Source of the DNA: Sphingorhabdus sp. EL138
GTDB taxonomy: Bacteria; Pseudomonadota; Alphaproteobacteria; Sphingomonadales; Sphingomonadaceae
Direction: 5' to 3'
DNA length: 64,000 nucleotides
Assembly: GCF_945862485.1 (NCBI RefSeq)
Contig: NZ_CAMAYF010000003.1
Coordinates: 1 to 64,000 of the forward strand
In this document: positions 33,338 through 41,998 of the stretch, in pieces
How positions within the stretch are numbered: the first letter of the stretch is position 1
Layout of the letters: each line of letters opens with the position of its first letter
Position numbers and translations under genes: made by a program
Notes under the pieces: generated by a model
What the model was told of the DNA's origin: nothing
Databases searched by the model: none
Seen by the model: only the letters and a program-made list of their open reading frames with translations

Positions 33338-34282
33338 TTACTTGTCGGTTTGCGCCTCGAGCTGGCGGATCTCTTGATCCAGCTTTTCGATCACATCTTT
33401 GCGCACGGCTTTGGGAATATCTTTTTCCGAAGCAATCTCACTACGTGCCTCGCGCAAGCCTTTTATCGCTTCAATTCGGGCAATCTTTGCTTGCCCCTTG
33501 CCGCACATTACAAGGCGGACGCGCGCCTTTTTCGTACCATCCGAACCTTCGACATCGGCAGTGACGGGTTGCTCGGCGGCAGTGCAGTTTTCGGTCATTT
33601 CTTGAATGTCGATCTCAGGTATATCGGCGGCGGCTTTTATGATGATCCGCTTGGGTTCCAATATCCCGCGCGCGCCTTCGGCCATAGCCGCATCGGCCGC
33701 TTTGCCAGACGCTTCAGCCTCGCCGACCATTTTTTCGACTTCCTCCTCCGTCAGCTTCTTGTCGGTCCGGAAGATGAAGATTTTACCGTCACGTTCGACC
33801 TTGGTGACATCTTTGTTATCGCCGTCATGGCCGACGATATCGACCTCTTTCCCGTCGCGCTTTATCTTGATGATCCGGACATCGCGCTTGACCGCTTCGG
33901 CCTTGCTATCGGCAGCAGTTGCATCCTGTGCAACCACGGCGGGCACAACTGTTGCTGTAAGCGGCAGGACAATAGCAGCGGCGGCCATAACACCGATTTT
34001 CCCAAACAAGCGCCGTTTCGTGCTGGCATTTTTCATATTCAGTCTCCTCAATCGTTCGATGATAGTTTTTGGTGAATTCAGTGCGGTCGCAAAGATCGGC
34101 ACGCCGCCAAACGCTGTCCGCGCCAATGCCCGTCCATAAATGACGCGTTCCTCGGCACCTTTCACCGCTAAGACACGCGCATCGCACGCCACTTCTTGGT
34201 CAACGCGAAAGACGTTCCAACTCAACCACGCGACCGGGTTGAACCCAAAAAGGCACAATAGAGAGGGAGATGCGGACTTCAT
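33338..34282 (-). pseudogene. M56/BlaR1-like metallopeptidase gene, 5'-truncated
   Basis: The 314-residue frame starts in the middle of an M56 (BlaR1/MecR1) membrane peptidase: the segment FGFNPVAWLSWNVFRVDQ followed by EVACDARVLAVKG normally comes directly after the zinc motif HExxH. The first membrane helices and HExxH are missing. One more helix (IGVMAAAAIVLPLTATVV) and a 190-residue charged periplasmic part follow. Just upstream, out of frame, ATG at 34297 reads M-A-R-D-N then stops; adding one base would join it to the frame as RDNLMKSA, resembling M56 proteins. Beyond it lies the terminator of the neighbouring receptor gene, so the 5' end appears deleted and possibly frameshifted. The usual MecI/BlaI partner is absent. 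Confidence 0.65.
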
Positions 34283-34324
34283 CAATTATCTCGCGCCATC
34301 CAATTTCTCCTCCCCAAAAAATCG

Positions 34325-34383: not shown

Positions 34384-36777
34384 TTATTTCGCGCCGAAAT
34401 TGATTTTCGCTGTTACGCCAAAATAACGATCTGCCTCGCGGGGGATGATGTAGCGATATGCACCACCGGGACCACCCGATACGATCGAAGATGCAAAACT
34501 CTTGTCGAACAGGTTCTTAACCTGAAACGCAAGTCGCCAGCCATCATTCGGATCAACCAAAGCTGCGGACAAATCGACAATCGCGTAGCCATCTACGGTC
34601 GAACCAAGGCGCACAGCCGGGTTCGCACTTGCTTCGTAAATTTGGTCGGACTGCATTGCGATTTGGCTTCCCAATTCGATATTCGCAAAACCTGAAGTTT
34701 CAATGTCATATTGCGCGCCAAGCGACATTTTCCACTTTGGAGCATTCGCTAGAGGCGTACCCTTGGCGACCAATTGTGATGCATCGGCACCTGGTGGCAA
34801 ACGGAAATTCTCAACCTGTGCCTTGTTGTATGCAACGCCGCCCGAAAGGCTGAAGTTCCGCAATGGCGATGCAACAAAATCAACCTCGAAACCCTTTGTT
34901 GAAACCGAGCCAGCATTTGTAAGGCGCGTGGTACGCACACCGGCCACGAAATCGGGGCTGTTTGCCTGATAGTTGTTATACTTGGCATAATATGCCGCGA
35001 GGTTAACAATCAGATCACCGTCAAGAAGCGTATTTTTCAATCCCACTTCATACGCGTTGACCGTTTCCGGTGCGATAACACCGGCGCCCGGCGTCGTTAG
35101 GTTGTAGAATATATTGTAGGCTGGACCTTTATAGCCACGGGTATAGCTTGCATAAGCCATATTGTTTTGCGTGAGGTCAGCCTGCACGGCTGCCTTGCCC
35201 GAAACGTTATTGTTGCTGGTGCTGGTGGTGAAGGGAACACCGTTTGACGCGCCGGCCACAAAGCCTGTTGCCGGGGCTGTTGCCACGAGACCTTTATTAT
35301 ATACGCCCGCGTCAAAACTTGGTTGTACGCCTGGGCCCGCCAAGGATGTACGGCGAATATGGTTCACGTCCAATTCGTCATGTGTGTAGCGCAGACCACC
35401 AATGAAGCGCAGACTTTCGGACAGGTTCAACGTCGCCTGTCCAAATACCGACATATTTTTGAATGTCGAACCAAAGTCAGCCGTTCCGGCAGGAGTTGTG
35501 ATCGTCGACGCCCCCGCAGCCGTTGAACAAGGTGTGAGGCCCGGCACCACCGCAGCAAGCGTTGATGCTGAACATGTGATCACATTGCGCGTGAATGTCC
35601 GGTCCGATTCCGCCTTCGAATAATATGCTCCGATGACATATTCGAGGAACTGCCCGGTTGGTGAAGCAATTCGAATTTCCTGAGTTAAGGTATTCGATGT
35701 TTGCGGGCCATTATCATGTAATTGGTTCAAACCAACATAGGGCCGATCGAGCCAGTCGCCGTCGCGGATTTCAGTGTTATCCCAGCCACGATAGCTGGTA
35801 ATTGAAGTCACGCTATGCTCGCCCAGTTCCATGTCTGCTTGCAGCGCAATGCCCCAGCTTTCTTCCTTCGTCGCAGTGACGAGGTTCTGCCGAATGTTGC
35901 GTGAGTCCGAACGATCAAAGCCAGTTCCAACCAGCGCCAGAGCGGCCGCGTTGGTTGGCGTGTTGCCAATAATTTCGGCACAGCAATCGTCATCGGCTTT
36001 ACGGTAATCGGCGCGCAGCGTCAGCATTACTTTTTCGCTAACGTCGGCTTCAATCGCGCCGCGAACACTATAATGTTCATAGCCATTGACCTTTTTACCC
36101 GTGGTCAAATTGTTAATGTTGCCGTCATAGCTTCCGTAAAATCCGGTGAAGCGCGAACGCACATTGGCGCTTAGCGACAAGTTAACCGTCGCACGACCGC
36201 GATATTCGGATTTCGTGAAAAATGAACCTTCGACCGTCGCGCCATATTCAGCCGTCGGACGCTTCGTCACGATGCTTACTACACCAGCGGATGCGTTCTT
36301 TCCGAACAATGTGCCCTGTGGTCCGCGCAAAACTTCGATACGCTCAACGTCGAACAAATCCGTGAAGCCTTCACCAGCACGGCTCAAGACCACACCATCG
36401 AGAACAGCAGCGACCGATGGCTCAGCAGCAATCGAGAAGTTGATGGTGCCAACGCCGCGCAGGAACAATGCCTGGTTCAGTGACGTACCCGCCTTGCGGA
36501 AGTTCAAACTTGGAACGAGATACTGGGCATTTTCAAGGGTGATGCCGCCATTATTGGCGACAGCCTCTCCGCCAACAACGGAGACAGCAAGCGGAATATC
36601 CTGCAAACGCTCTTCACGCTTTTGCGCGGTTACGATGATTTCTGCATTGGCAGAATCATCTTCTGCTGGAGCGGTCTGCGCCATTACGGGCAGGCTTACC
36701 CCTGCCATGATAGCAGCGCTTGCGAACAATGAAGCGCGGATGAAAGACGATTTCTTAAATTCAGAACTGAACATCAT
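34384..36777 (-). CDS. TonB-dependent outer-membrane receptor (candidate sulfoquinovose/sulfolipid-glycoside uptake)
   Basis: A 797-residue outer-membrane active transporter. The start at 36777 has GGGAGG five bases upstream; the open frame runs further but only antisense to the next gene. A signal peptide (SLFASAAIMAGVSLPVMAQ) precedes a TonB box (AEIIVTAQKREERLQDIP), the plug domain (YLVPSLNF, FDVERIEVLRGPQGTLFGKN, GVVSIVTKRP) and a 22-strand barrel to the C-terminal AKINFGAK. TonB receptors of this size import siderophores, cobalamin or glycans. The substrate is inferred from context: it is divergent from the sulfoquinovosidase operon and shares its control region. Confidence 0.93.
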   Translation of the reverse strand: MMFSSEFKKSSFIRASLFASAAIMAGVSLPVMAQTAPAEDDSANAEIIVTAQKREERLQDIPLAVSVVGGEAVANNGGITLENAQYLVPSLNFRKAGTSLNQALFLRGVGTINFSIAAEPSVAAVLDGVVLSRAGEGFTDLFDVERIEVLRGPQGTLFGKNASAGVVSIVTKRPTAEYGATVEGSFFTKSEYRGRATVNLSLSANVRSRFTGFYGSYDGNINNLTTGKKVNGYEHYSVRGAIEADVSEKVMLTLRADYRKADDDCCAEIIGNTPTNAAALALVGTGFDRSDSRNIRQNLVTATKEESWGIALQADMELGEHSVTSITSYRGWDNTEIRDGDWLDRPYVGLNQLHDNGPQTSNTLTQEIRIASPTGQFLEYVIGAYYSKAESDRTFTRNVITCSASTLAAVVPGLTPCSTAAGASTITTPAGTADFGSTFKNMSVFGQATLNLSESLRFIGGLRYTHDELDVNHIRRTSLAGPGVQPSFDAGVYNKGLVATAPATGFVAGASNGVPFTTSTSNNNVSGKAAVQADLTQNNMAYASYTRGYKGPAYNIFYNLTTPGAGVIAPETVNAYEVGLKNTLLDGDLIVNLAAYYAKYNNYQANSPDFVAGVRTTRLTNAGSVSTKGFEVDFVASPLRNFSLSGGVAYNKAQVENFRLPPGADASQLVAKGTPLANAPKWKMSLGAQYDIETSGFANIELGSQIAMQSDQIYEASANPAVRLGSTVDGYAIVDLSAALVDPNDGWRLAFQVKNLFDKSFASSIVSGGPGGAYRYIIPREADRYFGVTAKINFGAK

Positions 36778-36810
36778 ATGTACCTCCCTAAAAATGGCCA
36801 TCCGCTTCTC

Positions 36811-36839
36811 AACTAAATCACTTGAGTTTGCGCAAGCAA
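36811..36839 (-). promoter_or_regulatory. Candidate receptor promoter with overlapping LacI-type operator
   Basis: On the minus strand TTGCTT (36834-36839) and TTAGTT (36811-36816) lie 17 bases apart, giving a leader of about 25 bases. The perfect palindrome TTGCGCAA (36828-36835), with the central CG typical of LacI-family operators, overlaps the -35 box and spacer. The LacI gene in the divergent operon is the obvious candidate ligand. Both sites are short and unproven. Confidence 0.35.
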
Positions 36840-37009
36840 TAAAAGCTATGTGAGGATATACCTTAGCAATGGCTGGGTTGTTACCAGATTGACTCAATAT
36901 GTCTAGCGGTGTCATATGGCGACGATTTTTAAGTCCGAACTGTTGCAATGTTGTCATAGTAGCAGGTTCGAAACGGCGAGAGGGACGGAAGTTGCCATTT
37001 TCAGTCATC

Positions 37010-39004
37010 ATGCAATCAGACGGCTTTGACCTGCTGCGCGATAACAACTGCATGCTGTCACATCGCGCGGGCGCTCCAGTTATCAGCATTGGCGTTGGAT
37101 CACCGGACCTTGAAATGGTTCGCGGCAATTTTCGCATCGACGACATCGTTGAAACACGATTGAAGCTGGATTGCTCCTCCCAAGTCGACGGCTGTATCCG
37201 GCTTTGGAACGCAAAACGACCCGACATTGTCGCAACGCTGGAGTTTGAGGAAAAGGCGCAGCGATCCATCCTCAAATTTCGCTGCAACGATCCCGCCTTC
37301 AACCGGCTTTGGATAGATATGCAATGCGCAACCACCGAAGCCCTTTGGGGCGGCGGGGAGCAAATGTCCTATTTACGGCTGAACGGGCGTCGCTTTCCGT
37401 TCTGGACGTCGGAGCCTGGGGTAGGCCGCGATAAATCGACCGCCCTTACCCAGACCATGGATGCGAATGGCCTGGCGGGCGGTGATTATTGGACGACCAA
37501 TTACCCGCAACCGACATGGGTAAGCAGTGCGCGTTATGCCGTGCACCTCGAAACGGCAGCTTATGCCGTACTCGATCTTACGGAAGCAAGCCGGGTTGGC
37601 GTCGAATGCTGGTCGGCCAATGTCGATTTAGAGCTTTTCGATGCGCCATCGCTGCCCAATCTGGTGACCAAATTGTCCAACCGTTTCGGGCGTCAACCGC
37701 CCTTGCCCGACTGGGCGATTTCTGGGGCAATTGTCGGCCTTAAGGACGGCGTGGACACATTTGACCGCTTCGAGACCATAGCTGCCTCTGGCGCGTCCAT
37801 TACGGGGCTGTGGTGCGAGGATTGGGTGGGCATCCGCCAAACCAGTTTTGGCAAACGCTTGTTCTGGGACTGGAAATGGAACGCCGCACGCTATCCCGAC
37901 CTGCCTGCACAGATCGCGTCGCTGGCCAAACGGGGCATTCGCTTTTTGGGCTATGTGAACCCCTATCTGGCGGTGGACGGCGCTCTCTATTTAGAAGCAT
38001 TGGCCAATAATTATCTCGCATTGCGGCAGTACAGTGACGACGCCTATGCGGTCGACTTCGGCGAATTTGACGCTGGCGTTGTCGATTTCACCAATCCTGA
38101 CGCCGCCAATTGGTTTGCCGACCGTATCATTGGCCAGGAAATGCTCGATTTCGGATTGTCAGGTTGGATGGCCGACTTTGGCGAATATCTGCCAACCGAT
38201 GTGCGGCTGTTCGACGGATCAGACCCGATGGAGGCGCATAATCGCTGGCCCGTTTTATGGGCGAAGGTCAACGCCGATGCGATAGCGTCACGCGGCAAAA
38301 CGCACGACGCGACCTTCTTCATGCGTGCGGGCTTTTCCGGCGTTCAGGCACATTGCCCCTTATTATGGGCGGGCGACCAAAGTGTTGATTTCACCCGCCA
38401 TGACGGCATCAATACGGTGATAACGGCCGCTTTGTCGTCGGGCATGTTGGGCAACGCCTATCATCATAGCGACTTGGGCGGCTATACGAGCCTGCACGGC
38501 GTGGTGCGGACGGCAGAACTTATGCACCGCTGGATCGACCTTGCCGCCTTTGCACCCGTCATGCGCAGCCATGAGGGCAACCGTCCCGCGGATAATCTAC
38601 AACTGGACAGCAGCCCCGAAATCCTGAACCATTTTGCACGGATGAGCCAAGTCCATGCGCAGCTTGCGCCTTATGTCCGCGCATTGTGTGACGAAGCATT
38701 GGCTAAGGGCCTGCCGCTGCAACGGCCACTATTCCTGCATTATGATGACCCTGCATATTTCGACATTCAGGACCAATATCTTTATGGCGCTGACATGATC
38801 GTCGCACCGGTTGTTGAACAAGGTCAGGACAGCCGTCCGGTGGCAATACCCGATGGCGATTGGGTCCATCTCTGGTCCGGCACGGCCTATGGCAAAGGCA
38901 CGCATGAGATCGCTGCACCGCATGGTCAGCCAGCCGTCTTCACCCGCACCGACAGCGCATATGCGGACCTGTTCGCGGCCATCCGCACGGCGTTTTCTGC
39001 ATGA
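37010..39004 (+). CDS. Glycoside hydrolase family 31 sulfoquinovosidase
   Basis: A 664-residue alpha-glycosidase of the YihQ/SmoI type, releasing sulfoquinovose from sulfolipid glycosides. The nucleophile Asp389 is in GWMADFGEYLPTD and the acid/base Asp456 in LLWAGDQSVDF. The sulfonate-recognition set of the Agrobacterium-type enzyme is complete: Lys245 (VGLKDG), Glu270 (WCEDWVG), Arg283 and Trp286 (FGKRLFWDWKW), Tyr492 (HHSDLGGYTS). Other GH31 glucosidases and xylosidases lack it. The start is ATG 37010; TTG 36992, with AGGGACGG upstream, would add six residues. There is no signal peptide, so it acts in the cytoplasm unless the start is wrong. It is the first of four genes overlapping by ATGA. 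Confidence 0.9.
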   Translation: MQSDGFDLLRDNNCMLSHRAGAPVISIGVGSPDLEMVRGNFRIDDIVETRLKLDCSSQVDGCIRLWNAKRPDIVATLEFEEKAQRSILKFRCNDPAFNRLWIDMQCATTEALWGGGEQMSYLRLNGRRFPFWTSEPGVGRDKSTALTQTMDANGLAGGDYWTTNYPQPTWVSSARYAVHLETAAYAVLDLTEASRVGVECWSANVDLELFDAPSLPNLVTKLSNRFGRQPPLPDWAISGAIVGLKDGVDTFDRFETIAASGASITGLWCEDWVGIRQTSFGKRLFWDWKWNAARYPDLPAQIASLAKRGIRFLGYVNPYLAVDGALYLEALANNYLALRQYSDDAYAVDFGEFDAGVVDFTNPDAANWFADRIIGQEMLDFGLSGWMADFGEYLPTDVRLFDGSDPMEAHNRWPVLWAKVNADAIASRGKTHDATFFMRAGFSGVQAHCPLLWAGDQSVDFTRHDGINTVITAALSSGMLGNAYHHSDLGGYTSLHGVVRTAELMHRWIDLAAFAPVMRSHEGNRPADNLQLDSSPEILNHFARMSQVHAQLAPYVRALCDEALAKGLPLQRPLFLHYDDPAYFDIQDQYLYGADMIVAPVVEQGQDSRPVAIPDGDWVHLWSGTAYGKGTHEIAAPHGQPAVFTRTDSAYADLFAAIRTAFSA

Positions 39005-40032
39005 ACCCTCGCGCCAACATACGCGATGTCGCAAAGCTGGCTGGCGTAGCGGTCAAAACCGTTAGCCGCGTGCTGAACGACCATCCTTATGTGAGCGCGG
39101 CGACTAAGGCCAAAGTGGACGCCGCCATGTCCGAGCTTGGCTTTAGCCCCAGCATCGCAGCACGCATTCTTGCTGGCACCAAATCCGGGCAGATTGCCCT
39201 CATCTACGACAATCATAGCCCTTATTATATGCACCAGATCATGCAGGGATGCTGGGACCGATGCCATCAAGAAGGCATGCGCTTGATTGCGCAGCCGGTG
39301 GATGTCGCCGACCCAGACGTCGGCGAACAGGTTCTGGGCATGGTCCGGCAAACACATGTTGACGGCGCAATACTCTCCTCCCCCGTAACCGATTGCGTGC
39401 CGGTGCTGAATGCGCTTGAAGCGCTCAACATTCCCTTTGTCCGCATCTCACCGGGCACTAACCATGCGTTGACCAGTTCCGTCTTCATGGATGATATGCA
39501 GGCCGCTGACGACATGACGACGAAGCTCATCAACATCGGCCATCGGCGGATTGGCTTTATCAAGGGCCACCCAAATCATAAGGCGAGTAGTGAACGACAA
39601 GCGGGTTACGAACGTGCACTGGGACGCGTCGGCATCTCGGTTGATTCTGACCTAATTGCCGAGGGACGGTTTGATTTCGAAAGCGGCGTATCGGCCACGG
39701 AACAGTTTCTGTCGCTCAAGCTTCCACCCACCGCGATTTTCGCATCGAACGACGACATGGCATCGGGCGTGCTTGCGGTCGCGCATCGGCGCGGCATTCA
39801 AATCCCCGAGCAGCTTTCGGTTGCTGGCTTTGACGATACGACACTGGCGCGTGTTGTCTGGCCGCCCTTAACCACGGTGCGCCAACCCGTTCGAGACCTT
39901 GCCTCCACCGCCGCTGACCTTTTATTTGGCGAAGGCGGAATTGAGCATCGTCGTCTGCCCCACGAACTTATCAGCCGCGAATCCGTGGCCCCACCTTATT
40001 TTCCTGCACCAAAAAAGAGCAAAAAATCATGA
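39001..40032 (+). CDS. LacI-family transcriptional regulator of the sulfoquinovose operon
   Basis: A 343-residue sugar-responsive repressor. The N-terminal helix-turn-helix (NIRDVAKLAGVAVKTVSRVL) and hinge are followed by a periplasmic-binding-protein-like effector domain (QIALIYDNHSPYYMHQIMQG, IGHRRIGFIKGH, PTAIFASNDDMASGV, LSVAGFDDTTLARVVWPPLT). Its ATG overlaps the glycosidase stop, and its stop overlaps the reductase start, so it is inside the operon it probably controls. Sulfoquinovose or a derivative is the likely inducer; this is inferred from context only. Confidence 0.93.
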   Translation: MNPRANIRDVAKLAGVAVKTVSRVLNDHPYVSAATKAKVDAAMSELGFSPSIAARILAGTKSGQIALIYDNHSPYYMHQIMQGCWDRCHQEGMRLIAQPVDVADPDVGEQVLGMVRQTHVDGAILSSPVTDCVPVLNALEALNIPFVRISPGTNHALTSSVFMDDMQAADDMTTKLINIGHRRIGFIKGHPNHKASSERQAGYERALGRVGISVDSDLIAEGRFDFESGVSATEQFLSLKLPPTAIFASNDDMASGVLAVAHRRGIQIPEQLSVAGFDDTTLARVVWPPLTTVRQPVRDLASTAADLLFGEGGIEHRRLPHELISRESVAPPYFPAPKKSKKS

Positions 40033-40931
40033 CCCTTCCTTCCCCGTCACGCACGCGTCCATTGGGCAAAAGTGGCATAGAAATCTCTTCCCTCGCATGG
40101 GGCATGTGGCGCTTTGCTGGACTTGATTTGTCTGCAGCGCGCGCCGCGATTGATGCCGCATTTGATGCTGGTATTACTTTGTTTGACACCGCCGACATTT
40201 ACGGTTTTGGCGAGCAGGGTTTTGGCAAGGCCGAAGAACTGCTGGGCCAAATATTTGCACAAGCCCCTGAATATCGGGACCGCATGATACTGGCGACAAA
40301 GGGTGGCATCACCCCGCCAACGCCTTATGACAGCAGCGCGGAATATCTAACCAAAGCCATTGATGACAGTCTGACCCGATTGCGCACGGACCGTATCGAC
40401 CTATGGCAAATTCACCGCCCCGATGTGCTGACCCACCCGCAGGAAATCGCCCGCACCATCGAAAACGCGCATAAGTCAGGCAAAATTCGCGCATTCGGCG
40501 TGTCCAACTTTACGCAAGCGCAGATTACAACGCTGGCGCAATTTAGCACGGTTCCCATTGTCTCAACACAACCCGAACTGTCCCCCTTGCGGATCGACAC
40601 CATCGAAAATGGCGAGTTGGATCAAGCGATAGCGATGGACCTTGCGGTCCTAGCGTGGTCGCCTTTGGGCGGCGGGCGCATTGGGGACCCACAAAATGCG
40701 CGTGAACAAAATGTCGCTGCAGCCCTTTCGGCGGTTGCAGCCGCGCACGGCGTTTCGCGCACAGCAGCGGCCTATAGCTGGATCATGGCGCACCCCGCCC
40801 GCCCCATCCCGATTGTCGGTTCACAAAACCCGGCGCGGATTGCCGAAGCCGCCGACGCTTTCAAAATTCAATGGACCCGCGCGGATTGGTACAGCGTCCT
40901 TGTCGCCGCACGTGGAGTGCCGCTGCCATGA
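40029..40931 (+). CDS. Aldo/keto reductase (SmoB-like, candidate 6-oxo-glucose reductase)
   Basis: A 300-residue aldo/keto reductase. The catalytic tetrad is visible: Asp53 (LFDTADIYG), Tyr58, Lys91 (ILATKGG) and His129 (LWQIHRPD); the cofactor region appears in VGSQNPARIAEA. In the sulfo-SMO pathway of Agrobacterium, SmoB reduces 6-oxo-glucose, the product of sulfoquinovose desulfonation, to glucose. Position between the sulfoquinovosidase, the LacI regulator and the SsuD-like monooxygenase suggests the same job. By sequence alone it could be any aldo/keto reductase. It overlaps both neighbours by ATGA. Confidence 0.88.
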   Translation: MTLPSPSRTRPLGKSGIEISSLAWGMWRFAGLDLSAARAAIDAAFDAGITLFDTADIYGFGEQGFGKAEELLGQIFAQAPEYRDRMILATKGGITPPTPYDSSAEYLTKAIDDSLTRLRTDRIDLWQIHRPDVLTHPQEIARTIENAHKSGKIRAFGVSNFTQAQITTLAQFSTVPIVSTQPELSPLRIDTIENGELDQAIAMDLAVLAWSPLGGGRIGDPQNAREQNVAAALSAVAAAHGVSRTAAAYSWIMAHPARPIPIVGSQNPARIAEAADAFKIQWTRADWYSVLVAARGVPLP

Positions 40932-41998
40932 ACACGCCTGTCGAAGTGAGCTGGTTCTCCGCGTTGTGCGATGACGACTATGAATTTCTGGGCGTGCCTG
41001 ACGCCAATTTGGCCTCCAGCTGGGAACATTGCCGCAATATCGTTTTGGCTGCCGAAAAAGGCGGGTTTGACAATATCTTGCTGCCATCGGGCTATACCCT
41101 TGGCCTCGATACAACCGCCTTTGCAAGCGCGATTGCGGCGCTAACCACGCGGATCAAATTGCTGATGGCTGTGCGTATCGGCGAAAGCTGGCCTCCCCAG
41201 CTTGCACGGCAAATCGCAACGCTGGACCAGATTTCGGGCGGGCGGTTGAATGTCAACATCATCTCGTCGGATTTGCCCGGCGACAAGATGGATTCCGAGC
41301 CCCGCTATCGCCGCACCGTTGAGGCGATGCACATCTTGAAGACGTTGCTGAACGGCGAACATCTGTCGATCGATGGGGAGCATTACAAGATCGACATCGA
41401 CCCGCCGCGCATAAAAACGGTCAGCGGTAAATGCCCCCCGCTTTATTTTGGTGGCCTCTCGCCAGCCGCAAAGGATGCCGCTGCCGAAGGTTGCGACGTC
41501 TATCTCATGTGGCCCGAAACGGTGCAGGGTGCCAAGGACTTGGTAGAAGACATGACCGCCCGCGCCGCCAAGTTCGGCCGCACGCTGAAATATGGTTTCC
41601 GCGCCCATGTCATCGTCCGCGAAACCGAGGCAGAGGCCCGCGCGTATGCCAACCATTTGCTGTCCAAGCTTGATGCCGATCAGGGCGAGGCTATCCGCAA
41701 CAAATCGCTCGACACGCAGACCTTCGGCGTCGCGCATCAGGCCGAATTGCGGGCGCAAGCTGCGGCAAATGATGGATATCTGGAAGATAATCTGTGGACC
41801 GGCATTGGCCGCGCCCGTTCAGGTTGCGGCGCGGCCATCGTCGGAGATCCGGACCAAGTGCTTGCCAAGATTAACGCCTATCGCGACATAGGTATCGAGG
41901 CGTTCATATTGTCGGGCTATCCGCACATCAACGAATGCGACATGTTTGCGCGTTATGTGTTGCCGAAGCTGGAACATGGGCGGTTGGCGGTAGATTAA
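40928..41998 (+). CDS. SsuD-like FMNH2-dependent monooxygenase (SmoC-like, candidate sulfoquinovose desulfonase)
   Basis: A 356-residue luciferase-like monooxygenase of the alkanesulfonate branch. Residues matching the SsuD active site are Arg225 and His227 (GFRAHVIVRET), Arg297 (GRARSGCGAAIVG) and Tyr331 (SGYPHINEC); the stretch YFGGLSPAAKDAAAEGCDVY with LMWPE is also SsuD-like. Such enzymes use reduced flavin and O2 to cut C-S bonds and release sulfite. In the sulfo-SMO pathway SmoC converts sulfoquinovose to 6-oxo-glucose. A flavin reductase is needed, and none is in this window. It is the last gene of the operon, facing prfA across an inverted repeat. Confidence 0.9.
   Translation: MNTPVEVSWFSALCDDDYEFLGVPDANLASSWEHCRNIVLAAEKGGFDNILLPSGYTLGLDTTAFASAIAALTTRIKLLMAVRIGESWPPQLARQIATLDQISGGRLNVNIISSDLPGDKMDSEPRYRRTVEAMHILKTLLNGEHLSIDGEHYKIDIDPPRIKTVSGKCPPLYFGGLSPAAKDAAAEGCDVYLMWPETVQGAKDLVEDMTARAAKFGRTLKYGFRAHVIVRETEAEARAYANHLLSKLDADQGEAIRNKSLDTQTFGVAHQAELRAQAAANDGYLEDNLWTGIGRARSGCGAAIVGDPDQVLAKINAYRDIGIEAFILSGYPHINECDMFARYVLPKLEHGRLAVD

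Follow-up and report, generated by a model that had tools for sequence, protein, structure and literature searches.

Few organosulfur compounds are more abundant than sulfoquinovose (SQ; PMC12890257), and its oxygenolytic degradation through the sulfo-SMO (sulfo-ASMO) pathway has been described before: the pathway was found, and its enzymes characterized, in Novosphingobium aromaticivorans (Liu 2021, as cited in PMC9594981), in a cluster without SsuE (PMC9594981), and it was studied in Agrobacterium (Sharma 2022, as cited in PMC9594981). Novosphingobium is also named in PMC12890257 and PMC13372026, and in a mangrove sample it was the dominant assimilator of SQ carbon (PMC13372026). Multipartite carbohydrate utilization systems containing TonB-dependent receptors (CUT systems) have likewise already been proposed (PMC1790865). 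Here, we analyze a 64,000-nucleotide stretch from Sphingorhabdus sp. EL138 (“the window”), which carries at 34384-41998 a candidate SQ cluster with all five of its genes present, those for a GH31 sulfoquinovosidase (SQase), a LacI-family regulator, an aldo/keto reductase (AKR) and a luciferase-like monooxygenase (LLM) on the plus strand and that for a TonB-dependent receptor on the minus strand. Because sulfo-SMO/ASMO is already characterized in N. aromaticivorans, neither the enzymes nor the host group are new; the interesting part is the uptake and regulatory architecture and the exchange of receptors.

The window cluster resembles described sulfo-SMO/ASMO clusters in its SQase, flavin-dependent SQ monooxygenase and AKR and, as in N. 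aromaticivorans, contains no flavin reductase. It differs from Agrobacterium smo, where sulfoquinovosyl glycerol (SQGro) is imported by an ATP-binding cassette (ABC) transporter (PMC9594981), in that a TonB receptor and an unlinked major facilitator superfamily (MFS) transporter would take up the substrate, and also in its LacI-type regulator and shared motif. The sucrose CUT locus sux of Xanthomonas (PMC1790865) has the same combination of TonB receptor, MFS transporter, enzyme and LacI/GalR-type repressor, whereas here the substrate would be sulfonated, the parts lie at two loci with one motif, and the receptor comes in two alternative classes. With a TonB receptor, an inner-membrane transporter (at the unlinked locus), enzymes and a sugar regulator, all CUT parts are present, and the arrangement fits CUT loci as a multipartite case. 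Clusters with NAD-dependent SQases of family GH188 (PMC10755693) are matched by 22 of 126 SmoC loci (deduplicated by SmoC sequence, with the neighborhood taken as 9 kb from SmoC), in which a Gfo/Idh protein occupies the SQase place, whereas the window has GH31; one such relative scored 391 bits against the GH188 structure 8qc2. In the literature searched on sulfoquinovose, with subscription journals mostly outside the search, we found no description of SQ uptake by a TonB receptor, nor of a receptor, an inner-membrane transporter at a second locus and a motif common to both.

From sequence comparisons, we consider it highly probable that the window cluster is one half of a two-locus SQ utilization regulon in a Sphingorhabdus-type sphingomonad, a confidence slightly reduced by the small margin of the SmoB assignment and because GH188-type loci lack the motif.

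The catabolic half is best supported by its first and last enzymes. The GH31 protein scored 825 bits against 5ohy (YihQ by its PDB name, and presumably the Agrobacterium SQase), 706 against 8r56 and 659 against 6pnr (both named in the PDB only as general GH31 or alpha-glucosidase), and 607 against Escherichia coli YihQ (5aed), vs. at most 139 bits against YicI and other GH31 entries outside the YihQ-like group; on these scores we rejected an alpha-xylosidase or general alpha-glucosidase. It also passes the NCBIfam equivalog PRK10426 (863 bits, cut-off 553), named alpha-glucosidase there, which we take to be the YihQ model. In the alignment with 5aed, YihQ residues R301, W304, Y508, D405 and D472 correspond to R283, W286, Y492, D389 and D456, and the position of Q288 is E270. 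Given the roles of these residues in YihQ, the enzyme as aligned has both the catalytic Asp pair and the sulfonate-binding Arg/Trp/Tyr of sulfoquinovosidases, in agreement with the sulfoquinovosidase-type enzyme named by the first-pass annotation; it is probably cytoplasmic, since no signal peptide was seen by eye. The LLM scored 374 bits with 7olf and 367 with 7oh2 (named methanesulfonate sulfonatase and alkanesulfonate monooxygenase in the PDB, and which we take to be SmoC), vs. 220 against 7jv3 and 196 against SsuD (1m41). By these scores it is SmoC-type and nearer SmoC than SsuD, in keeping with its earlier placement in the sulfo-SMO pathway; as an SsuD alkanesulfonate monooxygenase it was rejected, its 262.7 bits falling under the SsuD equivalog cut-off of 518.2.

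The AKR matched 7bbz (161 bits) and 7bby (160 bits) best, both presumably SmoB, followed by 4r9o (153) and YdhF (150). With only ~7 bits separating 7bbz/7bby from 4r9o, the SmoB-like naming is mostly contextual. The oxygenolytic pathway first proposed for this cluster is supported by the SQase and SmoC identities and, for SmoB, by co-location and a narrow best match. The relatedness of the monooxygenase to SsuD, and the formation of sulfite in either case, would also suit an operon that desulfonates SQ chiefly as a sulfur source under sulfate limitation, like Ssu, with carbon use secondary. We regard this as decidedly unlikely: the operon's sugar regulator of LacI type, its SQase and its AKR, along with GlpD/GlpK and genes for a putative exporter or molybdoenzyme in related clusters, together indicate carbon use with sulfur as waste.

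The other half of the proposed regulon lies elsewhere in the genome. Eight congeneric genomes (five with GH31, including the window's own assembly, G000, and three without) were searched with an MFS protein from an SQ cluster, together with a PF03601 search. In G000 the MFS match (C7:19508-20629, 38% identical to the query) lies beside a YeiH-like gene (C7:20869-21762), and the order of this second locus (L203) is MFS(-) followed by divergent YeiH-like(+) and GlpD(+) genes, whose best matches to families from sphingomonad SQ clusters are 81, 65 and 65% identical, respectively. The locus also occurs in the other four GH31-positive congeners. Its MFS is of the G000 type in G279 and of another subtype in G083, G131 and G181, 39-40% identical to that of G000 and 77% to an SQ-cluster MFS; two subtypes therefore occupy one site among these congeners (L203-L207), independently of receptor class. 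Of the 126 deduplicated loci, 20 are of Sphingorhabdus type, hand-picked from prfA-linked loci, and none of these has an MFS gene within 9 kb of SmoC; of the 106 others (L108, prfA-linked and also without MFS, was counted here), 84 have one. Without deduplication the count is 0 of 23 prfA-containing loci, 11 of which extend less than 9 kb on one SmoC side; neighborhood genes were called with a home-made codon-score caller, and gene absences may therefore include missed genes and contig ends. The inner-membrane transporter is probably the MFS at the unlinked locus. The first-pass annotation had set a TonB receptor in place of an ABC importer, which is a category error: a TonB receptor works at the outer membrane, and the MFS likely at the inner.

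What joins the two loci is a 19-bp motif, found by comparing the divergent gap of the window, where it reads TATGACACCGCTAGACATA, with the second locus, where the copy reads TATGACACCGCAAGACATA (G000:C7:20754-20772). As the pattern TATGACACCGCnnGACATA, present at both loci, it has only these two sites in the genome at up to 2 mismatches. Across 141 sources (the window and 140 loci chosen for matching SQase or SmoC), TATGACACCGCTAGACATA at up to 3 mismatches gave 118 sites in 88 sources, as compared to 0, 0 and 1 in three mononucleotide shuffles. At this limit it is present in 76 of the 79 distinct gaps between divergent receptor and SQase genes (the remaining three at 5, 5 and 8 mismatches) and, at up to 4 mismatches, in 27 of 34 gaps between MFS and YeiH-like, GlpD or SsuE genes but not in the other 7. 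By arrangement, 78 of 79 exact-order sources, 10 of 40 others and none of 22 GH188-type loci carry it at up to 3 mismatches, so the motif belongs to the exact-order arrangement and not to SmoC clusters generally. In whole-genome scans with the IUPAC pattern, each of the five GH31-positive congeners had a copy without mismatch at either locus; G279 had an additional site at 2 mismatches, and the three other congeners had no site at up to 2 mismatches. At 3 mismatches the five gave 16 sites and the three gave 10 (2 and 7 with a reversed-pattern control), so some of the 16 may be real, none of them strong. The motif is probably the LacI operator, and the regulon it predicts points to transporter genes outside the catabolic cluster that co-location surveys would miss.

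MFS and YeiH-like proteins belong to broad families, and G180 has a YeiH-like/GlpD pair without the motif; the second locus might thus serve another sugar or glycerol compound and have only ancestry in common with SQ-cluster genes. We think this unlikely, given the perfect motif copies at both loci in five congeners, with a single extra site in one of them, and the homologues of these genes that sit inside SQ clusters elsewhere.

Taken together, the two loci would work as follows. The TonB receptor would pass SQGro and/or SQ across the outer membrane and the MFS (G000:C7:19412-20659) would carry the substrate across the inner membrane, after which cytoplasmic GH31 would release SQ and glycerol. 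SmoC, with reduced flavin mononucleotide (FMNH2) and O2, would convert SQ to sulfite and 6-oxo-glucose, which SmoB would reduce to glucose; glycerol would be used via a GlpK-like FGGY kinase (unlinked, on C5) and the second-locus GlpD, and sulfite exported by the YeiH-type exporter and/or oxidized. In the absence of SQ or SQGro, LacI would keep the two loci repressed by binding at TATGACACCGCnnGACATA. An alpha/beta-hydrolase-flavin reductase fusion encoded on C9 (L032:1489-2724, minus strand) may supply the FMNH2; it is the only PF01613 protein in G000, which has no PF03358 match. A degenerate motif copy starts 36 bp before the fusion gene in all five GH31-positive congeners; the copy in G279 is its extra 2-mismatch site, and that in G000 is beyond 3 mismatches.

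Two side observations concern flavin and sulfite. Of the 126 deduplicated loci, 17 have a gene for 3,4-dihydroxy-2-butanone 4-phosphate (DHBP) synthase (PF00926), an enzyme of riboflavin synthesis, no more than 9 kb from SmoC (e.g., L040:14196-14795); it usually sits beside an FMN reductase gene and perhaps serves flavin supply for SmoC. A PF00174 molybdopterin protein (G000:C46:4146-4565) is present in exactly the five GH31-positive of the eight congeners; as it is only ~28-29% identical to the SQ-cluster molybdoenzyme (three loci compared), a sulfite oxidase role is possible but unproven.

The receptor is tied to the same genes by its distribution. Receptors of 119 loci (not deduplicated) fall into two main classes, T0 (59, the window included) and T1 (55), with five others; T0 loci comprise 37 with GH31, 20 with GH188 and two undetermined, and T1 loci 52 with GH31 and three undetermined. 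In related loci, T1 receptors share 39-41% identity with the T0 receptor of the window. In 396 genomes of the order Sphingomonadales, T0 matched 36 and T1 40 (E <= 1e-180), all inside the 87 SmoC-positive genomes and none in the 309 genomes without a SmoC match, which supports the earlier suggestion of a TonB receptor tied to sulfo-SMO genes and makes the two classes marker genes closely linked to SmoC. Only G130 is in both lists, with one T1 gene (45% identical to T0, 68% to T1); counting it as a cross-hit, 75 of the 87 carry one receptor class. SmoC-positive genomes without GH31 comprise 16 with T0, one with T1 and nine with neither; those with GH31, 19, 39 and three. The structural model of the receptor (mean pLDDT 71.7, pTM 0.76) retrieved only TonB receptors in a fold search (50 matches listed). 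We propose, on these sequence associations, that it is an outer-membrane transporter for SQ or SQGro.

Several points weigh against these readings. At up to 3 mismatches the motif is missing from 22 of 22 GH188-type loci and from 30 of 40 others that lack the exact gene order, many of them with LacI; its sequence forms a near-palindrome and also a direct repeat of TGACA, its second-locus site falls within the first codons of the called YeiH-like open reading frame (ORF), and LacI is linked to it by proximity. The margin of the AKR over 4r9o is small, and the link between the fusion reductase and SmoC is weak, a lead only. Neither receptor class was found at E <= 1e-180 in 12 of the 87 SmoC-positive genomes, and the co-occurrence of receptor class and SmoC (Fisher p ~1e-68) rests on counts uncorrected for shared ancestry. 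Finally, most of the receptor's nearest solved relatives, whether in sequence or in fold, are siderophore receptors, as would be expected if its cargo were an iron chelate or some unrelated glycan and it adjoined the operon by chance, with SQ entering via porins. Few solved proteobacterial sugar TonB receptors are known that could match, both classes occur only in SmoC-positive genomes at the thresholds used, and the motif recurs in nearly all distinct receptor|SQase gaps, so that we hold such an unrelated receptor to be very unlikely and retain the proposed SQ or SQGro transporter.

On a quick SmoC tree (deduplicated; 103 of the 119 receptor loci, after dropping duplicates, short or missing SmoC and the five T2/T3 loci), 12 changes are required to account for receptor class, and well-supported branches force 7 of these, vs. 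a shuffled mean of 33.9 changes. To locate exchange boundaries, six T0/T1 locus pairs were aligned. In four (window-L033, window-L034, L035-L034 and L113-L034) the flanks align in blocks of ~74-95% identity (~93% in long blocks for the last two), the receptor genes fail to align, and alignment picks up again no more than 1 bp from the motif; only two T1 loci are involved, with receptors 95% identical, so these pairs perhaps reflect one or two events. In L105 vs. L110 and vs. L104, homology continues ~126 bp past the motif, and the boundary is therefore not fixed. G180 combines a T1 receptor with a GH188-type enzyme. We give an even chance to the idea that there are two dedicated, mutually exclusive classes of SQ TonB receptor (~40% identical), repeatedly swapped as cassettes that end in some pairs at the operator edge and leave regulation and catabolism intact, driven by substrate form (SQ vs. 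SQGro or SQ lipids) or by phage or bacteriocin pressure. Broken related receptors were considered from counts of in-frame stops and rejected: in eight loci checked, six that had such counts and two that had none, the aligned frame was free of stops. An M56/BlaR1-like peptidase gene (window 33338-34285, minus strand) adjoins the 3′ side of the receptor gene, close to the distal edge of the exchanged segment.

The arrangement had been thought unusual, and it is instead a common form in Sphingomonadales of an already known pathway. The same order of receptor, SQase, LacI, SmoB and SmoC, which the first-pass annotation suggested looking for, was found in 79 of the 141 sources (71 distinct by SmoC sequence, the only exact-order count that is deduplicated). 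SQase matches occur in 66 of the 396 genomes (E <= 1e-100) and SmoC in 87 (E <= 1e-120), which together with the recurrent order shows that the cluster is no chance assembly. A SmoC pattern scan of contigs gave at least 595 pattern stretches, at least 583 of them encoding relatives, of which the best 80 were kept; the scan loci partly overlap with the other collected loci. The SmoC tree, divergent-gap counts and 126-locus counts are deduplicated, and the 118-site motif count, the T0/T1 tally and the neighborhood extras are not. LacI lies near SmoC in 105 and an AKR in 118 of the 126 deduplicated loci. Extra genes frequent in relatives are those for MFS, a YeiH-like exporter (PF03601), GlpD and GlpK, and further FMN reductase (PF03358), DHBP synthase (PF00926) and molybdopterin oxidoreductase (PF00174). 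Five genomes have a GH31 SQase with SmoC not found at these thresholds (G293, G285, G126, G182 and G308); neither receptor class was found in them at E <= 1e-180, and in the two loci inspected (L065 of G293 and L081 of G285) the gene calls around the SQase include none for Smo. Another SQ pathway may be at work in these genomes.

Features of the candidate SQ cluster in the window (Table 1) agree with the earlier description of a receptor gene divergent from a four-gene operon. All three ATGA overlaps are borne out by coordinates: the LacI start (39001) precedes the GH31 end (39004), the AKR start (40029) precedes the LacI end (40032), and the LLM ATG (40928) precedes the AKR end (40931). The receptor ORF was listed from 37335, its likely start being the ATG at 36777 (797 aa, GGGAGG upstream), and GH31 likely starts at the ATG at 37010 (664 aa) rather than 36899; these corrections leave a 232-bp divergent gap. 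A promoter scan was uninformative (1 found vs. 0.7 expected).

Table 1. Positions in the window of the cluster genes and the shared motif.
Feature	Position	Strand	Basis or remark
TonB-dependent receptor, class T0	34384..36777	-	PF00593 + PF07715; start corrected
Conserved motif TATGACACCGCTAGACATA	36898..36916	-	proposed LacI operator
GH31 sulfoquinovosidase (SmoI/YihQ type)	37010..39004	+	structure scores, active-site residues
LacI-family regulator, proposed SQ-responsive repressor	39001..40032	+	PF00356 + PF13377
SmoB/SquF-like aldo/keto reductase	40029..40931	+	PF00248; proposed 6-oxo-glucose -> glucose
SmoC/SquD flavin-dependent sulfoquinovose monooxygenase	40928..41998	+	scores vs. solved structures

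The cluster is flanked by the M56/BlaR1-like gene on one side and by a gene reading as prfA (by eye) on the other. The assembly totals 2.18 Mb on 55 contigs, with a completeness of 96.6% and a contamination of 2.75%. One of these contigs, C55 (L248, 3043 bp), carries another SmoB-SmoC-prfA end, which shares 83-85% identity with the window and 89% with G181; rather than a second SmoC copy in the genome, the contig probably strayed in from a related strain, as the listed contamination would allow without proving it. The nearest named SmoC relatives are from Sphingorhabdus, with 97% identity to S. wooponensis and isolate WA123a among the matches listed.

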